In this document: in pieces, positions 185 to 10,972 of the stretch
Layout of the letters: each line of letters opens with the position of its first letter
Numbering within the stretch: the stretch's first letter is position 1
Source of the DNA: Pseudomonas protegens
GTDB lineage: Bacteria > Pseudomonadota > Gammaproteobacteria > Pseudomonadales > Pseudomonadaceae
Direction: 5' to 3'
Assembly (NCBI RefSeq): GCF_013407925.2
Contig: NZ_CP060201.1
Location: 372,001 to 436,000 of the forward strand
DNA length: 64,000 nt
Program-made: the position numbers and the translations under genes
The notes under the pieces: model-generated
The model's input: the letters and a program-made list of their open reading frames with translations, nothing else
Told to the model about the DNA's origin: nothing
Databases searched by the model: none

Positions 185-294
185 TGTAGCCGCTGCTGAG
201 CCACGGCGAAGCTGCGCAAAGGTCCGCAGGACCTTGCTTGACGATCGCCCGCCAAACCCGCAGCGGCCTCAAGAACGCTGCGGCAGCGGCTACA
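185..294. repeat. Inverted-terminus repeat element, copy B
   Basis: Same termini and interior as the copy at 28-163, but about 26 bp shorter because a segment just inside the right end is missing. It lies in direct orientation to copy A and just touches the 3' end of the neighbouring minus-strand gene. Confidence 0.75.
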
Positions 295-1723
295 GCAATC
301 TCGCCAGGCGCGCGGCCAGGGCCTTGGCTTGCAGGGCGACGTCGGTGACGGCGGTGCTTTCCCACCACAGGCCGCGCAACGGCGGGCCCATGGCGAACAG
401 GCGCTCGGAGGCCTGGCCACAGGCATCGTGCACGGCACCCTCCGCCGTGGCGCTGATGCCCAGGGCCAGAGGCCCGGGGCTGACTAGGCCGCGGGCCAGC
501 AGTTGCTGCGGCAAGGGCCGCGCCACCCGGCGCCAGTCGTATTCGATGCCGCTGGAGTTGATCAGGGCATCGCCCGCCACGGGCACGCTGTCCTGGCTGC
601 CGCGATAGCGCAGGCGGATCGTCAGCCGGCCGTCGGCGCCCGGCTCCAGCCCCTGGTAGCAAGCGGCATGCACCCGCAACCGGCCTTGCTCTTGCAGGCG
701 CGCCACCAGTTCCGCGCTCAAGGGCGGCGAGCGATGGTGATGGCTCTCCCACCAGGGCCGCACATGACGCACGAACTGGCGTTTCTGCACCTCGCTGGCC
801 TGGCTCCACAAGCGCCCGATATGGGCCCGCACCGTGTCCAGCGGCGCCTGCCAGTCGATGCCCTGAGCCTCGGCCACGCGGCATTGCTGGCGCAGCGCCC
901 GGAACAACTGTCGGGGGCTGCGCAGGCTCAGGTCGGCGGCGAGAAAATCCGCCCAGGCCGGCGGCTGGCGCCGCACGTGCGGCAGCAGCCCATGCCGGGA
1001 GAACACTTCGATCGGCCCGCGATGCCCGGCCTGCTCCAGGGACACCACGGCGTCCACCATGGTCAGCCCGGAGCCGATGATCAGCACCGTCGCCCCGGGA
1101 TCGAGGCGGGCCATGGCGGCCACGTCCCAAGGGTCCAGCGCGGCGGCGTTGAGGCCGCTGGAGCGAGTCTGCGGCGTGCGCGCCGCCGGGAACATGCCGG
1201 TGGCCAGCACCGCCCGCGCGCCGCGCAGTTGCCGGCCATCAGCCAGGGTCAGGAGCACGCCGTCAGGGCCGGTTTCCAGGTCCACCGCTTCGCCCTGCAC
1301 ATGGCTCAGCGAGGAACCCTGCCCCCGGCCCTGGGCTTGCGCCTCGGCCAGCCGCTGCTGGACATAGACGCCAAACAGCCCGCGGGGCGGAAACAGTTCG
1401 CTGACCGGCACATGCTGGCGGTCCGACTCGGGCCAGCCGCCCTCGGCAATGTGCCGGGTCAGCCATTGGGTCAGGTCGTCGGCGTTGTCCGGGTCGACGC
1501 TCATGCGCGCCGCGTTGCCGTTCAGGGTGTGGCCCAGCTCCACGGCGCTGTAGGCCTCGCCCCGCCCCAGTTCGCGGCGTGGCTCGATCACCAGGATCCG
1601 TCGCCGCCCCGGCCGGCGCAGCAATTGCGCGGCCAGCAAGGCGCCGCTGAGGCCGCCGCCGACAATCAGAATGTCCGCATCAGGGTGGGCCGGGGTGGCC
1701 TGTGGGGTGTGGCTCTGGCTCAT
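290..1723 (-). CDS. FAD/NAD(P)-binding oxidoreductase-like protein
   Basis: A 477-residue protein with an N-terminal Rossmann FAD-binding motif (ILIVGGGLSGALLA, about residues 19-32) and a second dinucleotide-type motif near the middle (VLIIGSGLTMVDAVVSL). This pattern fits the NAD_binding_9/HI0933-like family of FAD proteins, whose substrates are mostly unknown. No membrane segment is seen. It is the last gene of the minus-strand series that carries a branched-chain-type ABC importer and two flavin monooxygenase-type proteins, and lies 13 bp after the LivF-like gene. This suggests it processes the imported compound or supplies redox chemistry for it. The specific reaction cannot be deduced. 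Confidence 0.8.
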   Translation of the reverse strand: MSQSHTPQATPAHPDADILIVGGGLSGALLAAQLLRRPGRRRILVIEPRRELGRGEAYSAVELGHTLNGNAARMSVDPDNADDLTQWLTRHIAEGGWPESDRQHVPVSELFPPRGLFGVYVQQRLAEAQAQGRGQGSSLSHVQGEAVDLETGPDGVLLTLADGRQLRGARAVLATGMFPAARTPQTRSSGLNAAALDPWDVAAMARLDPGATVLIIGSGLTMVDAVVSLEQAGHRGPIEVFSRHGLLPHVRRQPPAWADFLAADLSLRSPRQLFRALRQQCRVAEAQGIDWQAPLDTVRAHIGRLWSQASEVQKRQFVRHVRPWWESHHHRSPPLSAELVARLQEQGRLRVHAACYQGLEPGADGRLTIRLRYRGSQDSVPVAGDALINSSGIEYDWRRVARPLPQQLLARGLVSPGPLALGISATAEGAVHDACGQASERLFAMGPPLRGLWWESTAVTDVALQAKALAARLARLL

Positions 1724-1736
1724 GGCGTGCTCGCGG

Positions 1737-2504
1737 TCAATGTTTGCCCAGGTAGAAATCCTGCAGATCGCCCCGGGCCAGCAACTGCTCGGCGGTGCCG
1801 GACAGGGCCACCCGCCCGGTGTCCAGCAGGCAGGCGTGGGACGCGTACTTGAGCGCCAGATTAATGCTTTGTTCGGCGATCAGAAAACTGACCCCCGCCT
1901 CGCGATTGAGCTGGGCGACGATCTGAAAAATCTCCTGGACGATGATAGGCGCCAAGCCCATGGAAGGTTCGTCCAGCAGTACCAAAGTAGGATGGGTCAT
2001 CAACGCCCGGCCGATGGCCAGCATCTGCTGCTCGCCGCCCGAGGTCAGTCCGGCACGCACCTTGCGCTTGCTCAGCAGCCGCGGAAACCAGTGGTAGATG
2101 CGCTCCAGGTCCTCGGCCAGCTGCCGGCGCCCCAGCCCGCGGACAAAGCCGCCGCTGCGCAGGTTGTCCTCCACGGTCAGCTGGCCGAACACATGCCGCC
2201 CCTCCAGCACGTGCACCATGCCCTGGCGCACCCGCCGGCTGGGGTCGACCCCGGCCAGGTCCTGCCCGGCGAAGCGGATGCTGCCGCGCCCCAGCTGGGC
2301 CCGCTCGGCGCGGCCCAGGCCGGAGATGGCCTTGAGGGTGGTGCTCTTGCCGGCGCCATTGGCCCCCAGCAAGGCGACGATCGCCCCCTGGGGCACGTCC
2401 AGGGACACCCCGGCCACCCCGAGGATGGCGCCGTCGTAGATCACCTCGATGTCCTGCACCTGCAGCAGGTGCTCGGCCGCGCTGGCCGTGGCGCTGTGGC
2501 TCAT
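1737..2504 (-). CDS. ABC importer ATP-binding protein, LivF type
   Basis: A 255-residue ATPase of the branched-chain amino acid/amide (HAAT) importer family. Visible motifs are Walker A GANGAGKST, a variant signature TSGGEQQM and Walker B LVLLDEPSMG, followed by IAEQS where many ABC ATPases have the H-loop; LivF proteins often carry Q there. It starts 3 bp after the binding-protein gene. It should pair with the LivG-like ATPase encoded at 5802-6581 to energise the LivH/LivM-like channel. Substrate is unknown; the flavin monooxygenase neighbours argue against simple leucine uptake. Confidence 0.9.
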   Translation of the reverse strand: MSHSATASAAEHLLQVQDIEVIYDGAILGVAGVSLDVPQGAIVALLGANGAGKSTTLKAISGLGRAERAQLGRGSIRFAGQDLAGVDPSRRVRQGMVHVLEGRHVFGQLTVEDNLRSGGFVRGLGRRQLAEDLERIYHWFPRLLSKRKVRAGLTSGGEQQMLAIGRALMTHPTLVLLDEPSMGLAPIIVQEIFQIVAQLNREAGVSFLIAEQSINLALKYASHACLLDTGRVALSGTAEQLLARGDLQDFYLGKH

Positions 2505-2507
2505 GCT

Positions 2508-9678: not shown

Positions 9679-9690
9679 GGCGATGTCCTT

Positions 9691-10893
9691 TCAGTTCCAG
9701 GCGTGACGGGGCGGCTTGACGCCGTTGAGCAGGTAGTTGCCGATCAGGTGGTATTTCCAGCGGGCCGGATCGTGCAGGGTGTGGGTGCGGGCATTGCGCC
9801 AGTGGCGGTCGAGGTTGTACCTGGCCGACACCGAGCGGGTGCCGGCCAGTTCGAACAGCTTGCTGGCGGCGAGCAAGGCACTCTCCGCCGACAGCACCTT
9901 GGCCTGGGCCACCACCAGGGAGGCCTGGGCGACGCTGTCTTCGCTGGGGCTGGCCAGGGCCTGGTCGACCGCTTCGGCGGCCTTGACCAGGATCGCCTCG
10001 GTGCCGTGCACCCGCCATTCCAGGTCGCCGATGGCGGCGATGGTGAACGGGTCCTGCCAGCCGTGATCCAGGCCGCTGTCGATCCACGGCCGCGATTGCC
10101 GGGCATGGTGCTTGGCGTCTTCCAGGGCGGCGACGGCGATGCCGGTGTCCACCGCGGCCTGGATGATCTGCGAGATCGGGCCGTCGGCGGTGGGTTGGTC
10201 GAAGGCCCGGTGGGCCGGGATCACCGCGCTGCGCGGCACCTGTACCGCCTTGAGGCTGACCCCGCCGCTGGCGGTGGTGCGCTGGCCGAAGCCGTCCCAG
10301 CTGTCGATCACCGTGAGGCCGGGGGTGTCGCGCTCGATAAAGGCGATTTGCGCCTGATTGTGCTCGTCCACCGCCACGGTCGGCACGATGTGGGCGAACA
10401 AGGCGCCGGTGCAGTAGAACTTCTCGCCGTCGATCTGCGCCCGGTCGCCGTCGAAACGGATCCGGGTTTCAAAGGCGCCGACGTGTTTGCTGCCAGCCTC
10501 GGAAAACGCGTTGCCGAAGCGGTAGCCCTGCAACACCTTGGCGAAGTAGTACTGCTTCTGCTCTTCGCTGGCGGTCTGCAGCAGGATGTCCACCACCCCG
10601 AGGTGGTTCTGCGGCAACTGGCCCAGGGACGGATCGGCGACAGAGATGAGCTTGATCACCTCGGTCAGGGTCACGTAGGACACCCCGGCACCACCGTAGG
10701 CCCGGGGAATGGTGATGCCCCACAGGCCGCTGGCGGAGAACTGGTCCAGCTCGGCCCGTGGCAGGCGCCGTTCGCGGTCGCGCACCGCGGCCTCCACGGC
10801 AAAGCGCTGGGCCAGGTCCCGGGCGACACGGATGGCCTCGGCATCGCTGCGGATGAGGTGGGCACTGGGTGAGGGTTGGGCTGGGGCTGTCAT
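9691..10893 (-). CDS. SfnB-family sulfur-acquisition oxidoreductase (acyl-CoA dehydrogenase-like)
   Basis: A 400-residue flavoprotein of the acyl-CoA-dehydrogenase fold, in the SfnB/DszC group tied to use of organic sulfur in Pseudomonas. The start ATG at 10893 has a GGAG site seven bases upstream. Landmarks are ITIPRAYGGAGVSYVTLTEVI, QLPQNHLGVVDILL, GNAFSEAGSKHVGAFETRI and the C-terminal PARWKYHLIGNYLLNGV. It opens the ten-gene minus-strand series, and a sigma-54-like promoter lies about 65 bp upstream, consistent with SfnR/sigma-54 control known for sfn genes in P. putida. The actual substrate is unknown. Confidence 0.85.
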   Translation of the reverse strand: MTAPAQPSPSAHLIRSDAEAIRVARDLAQRFAVEAAVRDRERRLPRAELDQFSASGLWGITIPRAYGGAGVSYVTLTEVIKLISVADPSLGQLPQNHLGVVDILLQTASEEQKQYYFAKVLQGYRFGNAFSEAGSKHVGAFETRIRFDGDRAQIDGEKFYCTGALFAHIVPTVAVDEHNQAQIAFIERDTPGLTVIDSWDGFGQRTTASGGVSLKAVQVPRSAVIPAHRAFDQPTADGPISQIIQAAVDTGIAVAALEDAKHHARQSRPWIDSGLDHGWQDPFTIAAIGDLEWRVHGTEAILVKAAEAVDQALASPSEDSVAQASLVVAQAKVLSAESALLAASKLFELAGTRSVSARYNLDRHWRNARTHTLHDPARWKYHLIGNYLLNGVKPPRHAWN

Positions 10894-10956
10894 GGGCCGA
10901 CTCCACGTCCTGAAGATCAAGATGAACACCGCTGGGGTGCTCGCTATCAGGACAAT

Positions 10957-10972
10957 TGCAGGAGTCGTGCCT
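10957..10972 (-). promoter_or_regulatory. Putative sigma-54 promoter of the sfnB-type operon
   Basis: Read on the minus strand the site is AGGCACGACTCCTGCA. Against the consensus TGGCACR-N4-TTGCW this has both the GG and GC elements at correct spacing, with two mismatches. It lies 64-79 bp upstream of the start codon of the first gene. Sulfur-scavenging sfn genes are known to use sigma-54. Confidence 0.6.

Follow-up and report, generated by a model that had tools for sequence, protein, structure and literature searches.

A conserved Pseudomonas operon for probable organosulfur assimilation pairs a HAAT-type importer with SfnB- and DmoA-like oxygenases

We examined a 64-kb stretch of the Pseudomonas protegens genome (6,818,519 bases), here termed the window and used for all coordinates, in which ten minus-strand genes encode an SfnB-family flavin monooxygenase (SfnB), a stand-alone SfnB C-terminal domain, a DmoA-like monooxygenase of the NtaA/DmoA family (NtaA), an acyl-CoA-synthetase-like protein, a full HAAT-type importer (LivG, LivH, LivM, binding protein and LivF) and a protein that binds flavin adenine dinucleotide (FAD) and NAD(P) (Table 1). 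The cluster is real and conserved, and is probably an organosulfur assimilation operon, a variant of the sfn/msu systems. Judged from sequence, a role in organosulfur use under sulfate starvation is well supported, and we consider it likely that sulfate starvation turns the operon on through sigma54 and an activator of the SfnR type, and that its products take up a small organosulfur compound and remove the sulfur by oxidation.

An earlier note on this DNA had described the genes as an uptake-and-oxidation system for organic sulfur. Gene calls and family profile matches bear out the ten genes, their strand and their families, and the overall reading is upheld by conserved gene order, sfn/msu-like neighbours and an SfnR/sigma54-type promoter. 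Two details do not survive as given: no result supports a 'bulky or amide-like' substrate, and the importer proves less odd a partner than was thought. Nor do the genes run 'almost without gaps', 221 bp of sequence (to the eye like repetitive extragenic palindromes, REP) separating NtaA from the synthetase-like gene.

Conservation and sulfur-gene neighbours

A binding-protein scan returned 156 encoding places, the best 80 of which were kept (loci L032–L111). In L032–L097, the synthetase-like, LivG, LivH, LivM, binding-protein, LivF and FAD genes are found at 66 of 66 loci, NtaA at 60, SfnB and the SfnB C-terminal-domain gene at 59 each and an XRE-cupin regulator gene at 57; the six that lack NtaA are truncated at the end of a contig. 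The more distant L098–L111, which include P. putida, P. brassicacearum, Azotobacter, Azomonas, a Zoogloeaceae metagenome-assembled genome (MAG) and a beta-proteobacterial MAG, all carry NtaA and the synthetase-like gene (14/14), with SfnB and LivG each present in 13. Our genus sample of 199 Pseudomonas genomes contains an NtaA match in 86, of which 67 reach at least 80% identity (two of these partial), and a cluster-type LivH in 44. NtaA accompanies LivH in all 44, within 8 kb in 43 and on separate contigs of a draft in one, a proximity that places the gene order beyond chance.

Sulfur genes adjoin several of these units, with sfnG, msuE, msuC, msuD, sfnR-like or SfnA-like genes beside L099, L107, L108, L109, L145, L148 and L168–L171 (L146 seems to be the L099 contig again). 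SfnG near the cluster in L099, L107, L108 and L109 scores 626–645 bits against a cut-off of 382.95, and these four loci hold between them MsuE-type reductases and MsuC/DszC-like enzymes near the cluster; L099 also has an alkanesulfonate monooxygenase and a sigma54 activator. The P. protegens genome carries MsuC-, MsuD- and MsuE-type genes elsewhere, and an SfnR-like gene (L151).

In Pseudomonas, Azomonas and a beta-proteobacterial MAG, sfnG is immediately followed by a paralogous HAAT importer. This importer comes after sfnG together with its own dead synthetase-like gene in L107, L109, L133, L136, L137 and L139; in L108 the importer follows sfnG and a synthetase-like gene was not detected. 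Across the genus sample, paralogous LivH is within 8 kb of sfnG at 8 of 18 loci. According to a figure legend of PMC8234197, the sfn operon of P. putida includes 'predicted ABC transporters' as well as a sfnAB pair that is uncharacterised; this and the sfnG-linked paralogue weaken the earlier view that HAAT importers are not usual partners of sulfur oxygenases.

A promoter signature shared with sfn and msu genes

Alignment of 21 upstream regions brings out two blocks, a sigma54 element and, some 100 bp further upstream, a palindrome. The element before SfnB was first spotted by reading the upstream sequence and then scored against shuffles (threshold at least 10 of 12, reached by 0.9% of shuffles); a first pattern allowing one mismatch had found nothing near the cluster, the SfnB-upstream site having two mismatches to that consensus. 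The threshold is reached by 54 of 60 SfnB upstream regions (the window plus 59 loci, which are related and so not 54 independent events) and, in more distant loci, by 14 of 22 for SfnB and 9 of 36 for NtaA, minimal units included, with several more one point under. Other cluster genes give 0/61 (NtaA), 6/64 (synthetase-like), 0/67 (FAD) and 1/58 (XRE-cupin), and further loci 1/17 for SfnA-like and 0/13 for XRE-cupin upstream regions. Scans for sigma70 promoters and terminators did no better than shuffles, and an Rfam search returned no match.

The palindrome, TGTT-N8-AACA, has its only copy in the window here. It recurs in 22 of 35 upstream regions (0.10 expected; the regions were mostly chosen for their sigma54 site) and, in strict form, in 6 of 9 sfnG or msuE-sfnG regions. 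Sites that combine palindrome and sigma54 element occur three times in the whole genome, where the reversed pattern is absent (0), and precede this cluster, another SfnB (5377397) and msuE-msuD-msuC-sfnR. Such composite sites are present in 134 of the 199 genomes, with 407 sites against 19 for the reversed pattern. In the 150 sites listed, NtaA is at most 4.5 kb away for 19 (0.21 expected), sfnG at most 1.5 kb away for 20, and paralogous LivH at most 4.5 kb away for 5. The sfnG-free paralogous importers L132, L134, L135 and L138 have a composite site just before the synthetase-like gene, and L061, L062, L073 and L088 a second one in the gap before the importer half, and these sites link the importer as such to the regulon; no composite site is present in the NtaA–importer gap of the window. 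Titles cited in PMC13352529 and PMC8234197 describe SfnR as a CysB-regulated, sigma54-dependent regulator of sfnFG. We infer that SfnR binds the palindrome and controls the cluster, and SfnR/sigma54-type control of the operon is very probable. Separately, composite sites assigned to none of these genes, for example in G085, G003 and G018, could name further regulon members.

Oxygenases, importer and synthetase-like protein

SfnB covers the whole TIGR04022 model (1–391) at 613.8 bits, above the curated cut-off of 430.9, and aligns with DszC and MsuC, all three having an LHDP motif in common. Its smaller companion matches model positions 242–386 only (98.8 bits) and is therefore not a full SfnB enzyme; it is 34% identical to SfnB over 138 columns, keeps the LHDP motif and has a median ratio of non-synonymous to synonymous substitution rates (dN/dS) of 0.32. 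The match to the DszC model reaches 208.4 bits against a cut-off of 850, and the ten genes include no match to the DszB family, so they do not make up a DszA, DszB and DszC set.

NtaA scores 567.7 bits with TIGR03860 (curated cut-off 279.7) and has a median dN/dS of 0.045. Its best solved relative is the dimethyl-sulfide monooxygenase DmoA (6AK1, 555 bits), followed by the alkane monooxygenase LadA (518 bits). It keeps 18 of the 20 DmoA binding residues listed in PMC9259527, differing at 231 and 367, and in the alignment carries DmoA's Q18 and Y138, where LadA has I and H. Kinship with nitrilotriacetate, EDTA (ethylenediaminetetraacetate) and alkane monooxygenases, LadA's score included, would also suit oxygenases acting on a non-sulfur substrate, either an aminopolycarboxylate (NtaA/EmoA-like) or an alkane (LadA-like). 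With DmoA scoring above LadA, both residues as in DmoA, and SfnB, sfnG-type neighbours and an SfnR-type promoter at hand, this is the least plausible of the readings we weighed.

The FAD/NAD(P) protein has two dinucleotide-binding motifs, GGGLSG and GSGLTM. The folds that match it best are those of amino-acid N-hydroxylases and lipoamide dehydrogenases (template-modelling (TM) scores 0.27–0.40, from a poor model with a predicted local distance difference test (pLDDT) of 65.7), and the N-hydroxylase likeness of the model is a hint only. We propose that the protein may be a heteroatom oxygenase or an electron supplier for NtaA.

A sister SfnB-SfnB-NtaA set lies near 2.96 Mb in the same genome (L150, 5821–14406), between cystine-type (TcyJ, TcyN) and MetQ/MetN-type importer genes, and like enzymes are thus paired with several importer classes. 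In P. protegens Pf-5, two SfnB-family genes, PFL_0244 and PFL_0245, show a strong drop in a gacS mutant, as does oscA (excerpt of PMC12892942); they may match either this cluster or an L150-type pair.

The importer falls below every curated Liv cut-off: 211.8 of 441 bits for LivF, 231.3 of 362 for LivG, 75.8 of 379 for LivH and 85.7 of 366 for LivM. The binding protein (median dN/dS 0.067) has a close solved orthologue, PDB 4RU0 (982 bits over 443 residues); against LivJ it reaches an hhalign probability of 0.4, an alignment too weak to judge the amino-acid site. Related binding-protein genes, 66–72% identical to the cluster's, occur in L140–L144 with no adjoining LivH or LivM match.

The LivF, LivG, LivH and LivM types, a synthetase-like relic that may point to a carboxylate-serving ancestor and the 23 of 67 NtaA genomes without the importer could all be accommodated if this were a usual HAAT importer, carrying a carboxylate or an amino acid without sulfur (branched-chain or other), and its place beside the oxygenases were incidental. 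That reading is very unlikely, given NtaA in 44 of 44 importer genomes, SfnR-type composite sites before the importer half and the sfnG-free paralogues, and scores well below the Liv cut-offs. A rather unlikely alternative keeps the same sulfur system and has it import an amino-acid-like thioether or its oxide (S-methylcysteine sulfoxide, methionine sulfone), with NtaA acting like CmoJ on an alkylcysteine sulfoxide. It draws on the HAAT family label, the YtnJ/MoxC chains among NtaA relatives (1TVL, 6ASK), CmoJ, a DszA relative described in an excerpt of PMC10863075, and the position of the sister set between cystine-type and MetQ/MetN-type importers. Yet the ten genes hold no acetyltransferase or deacetylase, and the paralogous importer accompanies sfnG, which acts on dimethyl sulfone rather than on an amino acid. 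We favour a small sulfide, sulfoxide or sulfone as the imported substrate.

In 76 of 80 relatives the N- and C-terminal parts of the synthetase-like gene are matched in a single reading frame. L068 shows two frames, the C-terminal part is unmatched in L104, L108 and L111, and in L041 a stop separates the two parts. Typical members have about 280–331 amino acids and end at the LivG start. A P-loop and YGxTE are the catalytic motifs of ANL acyl-CoA synthetases, and both are absent in 28 of 28 aligned family members. The protein models as an ANL-type domain (pLDDT 83.7), with a best Foldseek E value of 1.3e-10 and TM scores of 0.41–0.61; nearly all of the 50 matches listed carry the name of a luciferase, acyl-CoA synthetase or adenylation domain. 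The median dN/dS of 0.28 indicates purifying selection. By these sequence features the family is a conserved, catalytically dead ANL relative that is broken in this genome, where a 22-bp tandem duplication disrupts the frame. The label 'degenerate' given earlier fits this copy and not the family, which is itself conserved and short; plain decay was set aside on the strength of the single frame in most relatives and the dN/dS.

Table 1. Features of the cluster and its upstream region (window coordinates)
Feature	Position	Strand	Family or remark
FAD/NAD(P)-binding protein	290-1723	-	Pfam PF13454, 116 bits
LivF-type ABC ATPase	1737-2504	-	Pfam ABC_tran
HAAT-type periplasmic binding protein	2508-3842	-	Pfam Peripla_BP_6
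LivM-type permease	3870-4919	-	Pfam BPD_transp_2
LivH-type permease	4924-5805	-	Pfam BPD_transp_2
LivG-type ABC ATPase	5802-6581	-	Pfam ABC_tran and BCA_ABC_TP_C
Acyl-CoA-synthetase-like pseudoenzyme gene	6582-7589	-	Frame-broken; pieces 6870-7589 and about 6582-6830
Frame-shifting 22-bp tandem duplication	6816-6867		TRF period 22, 2.4 copies, 100%
Gap with REP-like palindromes between NtaA and importer genes	7590-7810		Length variable in relatives
NtaA/DmoA-family FMN-dependent monooxygenase, DmoA-like	7811-9214	-	TIGR03860
Stand-alone SfnB C-terminal domain, 154 amino acids	9214-9678	-	TIGR04022, partial
SfnB-family flavin monooxygenase (acyl-CoA-dehydrogenase fold)	9691-10893	-	TIGR04022
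Sigma54 -24/-12 element AGGCACGACTCCTGCA (GG-N10-GC)	10957-10972	-	Starts 79 nt before SfnB
Activator-type palindrome TGTTGGCCAGCCAACA	11058-11073		101 bp upstream of the sigma54 element
XRE-cupin regulator gene	11095-11658	-	Pfam HTH_3 and Cupin_2; directly upstream of the unit

The spot between NtaA and the synthetase-like gene measures 20 to 5298 bp across 60 relatives. It is an insertion spot, with 5.3 kb in L085 (1060–6400; open reading frames (ORFs) of 306 and 421 amino acids among others) and 1.4 kb in L061 (4960–6400; a 290-amino-acid ORF inside). To the left of the FAD gene (window 1–270), a unit of about 120 bp is repeated, by eye, about three times head to tail in intergenic sequence, as it is in L112 (about 7890–8290).

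Proposed pathway and its place among known systems

In the pathway we propose, the binding protein and the LivHMGF-type importer, classed by family, would take in a sulfide, sulfoxide or sulfone. SfnB would add oxygen to the sulfur in the manner of DszC, MsuC and the Dms enzymes, with the SfnB C-terminal-domain protein as a possible partner and the FAD/NAD(P) protein perhaps also oxygenating. The DmoA-like NtaA would then cleave the C–S bond, and the resulting sulfinate, thiol or sulfonate would be finished by MsuC/MsuD-type enzymes, with reduced flavin mononucleotide (FMNH2) from MsuE. The synthetase-like protein might, at a guess, be a scaffold or ligand sensor beside the importer. Acinetobacter Dms1–3 convert dimethyl sulfide (DMS) to dimethyl sulfoxide (DMSO) and on to dimethyl sulfone (DMSO2), all fed by one MsuE (excerpt of PMC13352529), an arrangement in keeping with a cluster that has no reductase of its own. 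That Dms1 and Dms2 are SfnB-family enzymes we infer from the class to which they belong and from their neighbouring locus tags.

Several observations weigh against this proposal or its generality. Soluble DmoA-type enzymes, including one from P. fluorescens, gave no detected methanethiol (excerpt of PMC9259527), and the cluster contains no flavin reductase gene. The FAD, SfnB C-terminal-domain and XRE-cupin genes are each found in 0 of the 14 more distant loci, so not all ten genes are needed. NtaA occurs without the importer in 23 of 67 genomes, which makes the importer an optional module of the enzyme unit; homologous clusters that lack the importer, which the earlier note had named as counting against its reading, are seen in these 23 genomes, and a strict ten-gene unit was set aside. 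As for the paralogous importers, 10 of 18 are not within 8 kb of sfnG, and those of L132 and L138 lie near nitrite-reductase-type or molybdopterin-oxidoreductase domain genes. On the promoter side, 6 of the 60 regions before SfnB fall short of the sigma54 threshold, SfnG regions reach it in only 5 of 13 (some sfnG following msuE), the sfnG of this genome has its palindrome 205 bp from its sigma54 element rather than at composite spacing, and 106 of the 150 listed composite sites are assigned to none of NtaA, sfnG and paralogous LivH. Sigma54 promoters also serve other regulons.

Twenty of the 23 importer-less NtaA loci were fetched. A minimal XRE-cupin/NtaA/FAD unit is seen in 8 of 20, and the FAD gene belongs to the NtaA unit in 16 of 20. 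SfnB, the SfnB C-terminal-domain protein and NtaA are joined by the FAD gene in L156 and by an SfnA-like gene in L165 and L167, and L162 has NtaA and a more distant SfnB; L168–L171 adjoin SfnA-like, sfnG, msuE, msuC, msuD or sfnR-like genes. Synthetase-like sequence is kept in L160, L163, L164 and L166. In the last three of these, a shortened synthetase-like match and the FAD gene flank the place of the absent importer, as though it had been lost by deletion.

Among the closest known systems is the Pseudomonas dimethyl sulfone regulon (sfnFG, sfnAB, msuEDC and SfnR), with which the cluster shares an SfnB-family enzyme, a sigma54 promoter whose upstream palindrome recurs at several sfnG/msuE promoters, and a HAAT importer, which adjoins sfnG in several loci. 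It differs in having a DmoA-like NtaA rather than SfnG as the importer-side C–S enzyme, in adding the SfnB C-terminal-domain, FAD/NAD(P) and XRE-cupin genes and in lacking MsuE and SfnG within the unit. Hyphomicrobium DmoA is the best solved relative of NtaA, with 18 of 20 binding residues in common; NtaA, known here from its sequence, has no adjoining reductase gene and sits with an importer and an S-oxygenase. The layout of an S-oxygenating enzyme with a group C enzyme that cleaves C–S bonds recalls the DszC–DszA (4S pathway) and CmoO–CmoJ pairs, but the cluster has a HAAT importer and no DszB match, and its nearest solved relative acts on an alkyl sulfide. The subunit set is that of Escherichia coli LivJK-LivHMGF and other HAAT importers, though the cluster scores below the Liv cut-offs and includes a dead synthetase-like gene. 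The sulfonate importers SsuABC and TauABC, which serve sulfur oxygenases when sulfate is scarce, have another permease class; that of the cluster is BPD_transp_2.

A full-text literature search, with most subscription journals outside its scope, gave no recognised account of a HAAT importer with SfnB or NtaA, and excerpts of PMC12892962, PMC10256816, PMC10949508 and PMC8079746 make no mention of such an importer. PMC13352529 completes the enzymes of DMS assimilation, and a term search of it finds a single mention of a transporter, SsuABC. The parts of the cluster are mostly familiar; what is poorly described is the pairing of a HAAT importer and a dead-enzyme relative with sulfur oxygenases. 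More tentatively, and with chances somewhat short of even, a branch of HAAT importers with a dead synthetase accessory may serve small neutral organosulfur compounds (sulfoxides, sulfones, sulfides) as part of interchangeable modules, DmoA-like or SfnG-like, in an SfnR/sigma54 regulon of Proteobacteria. The literature examined says little about the uptake of neutral sulfur compounds, DMSO and dimethyl sulfone among them, by soil pseudomonads. The unit and its sfnG-linked paralogue provide a candidate importer whose binding protein has a solved structure (4RU0), a testable signature for promoters of the wider regulon, and a pseudoenzyme that is conserved yet still lacks an assigned role.

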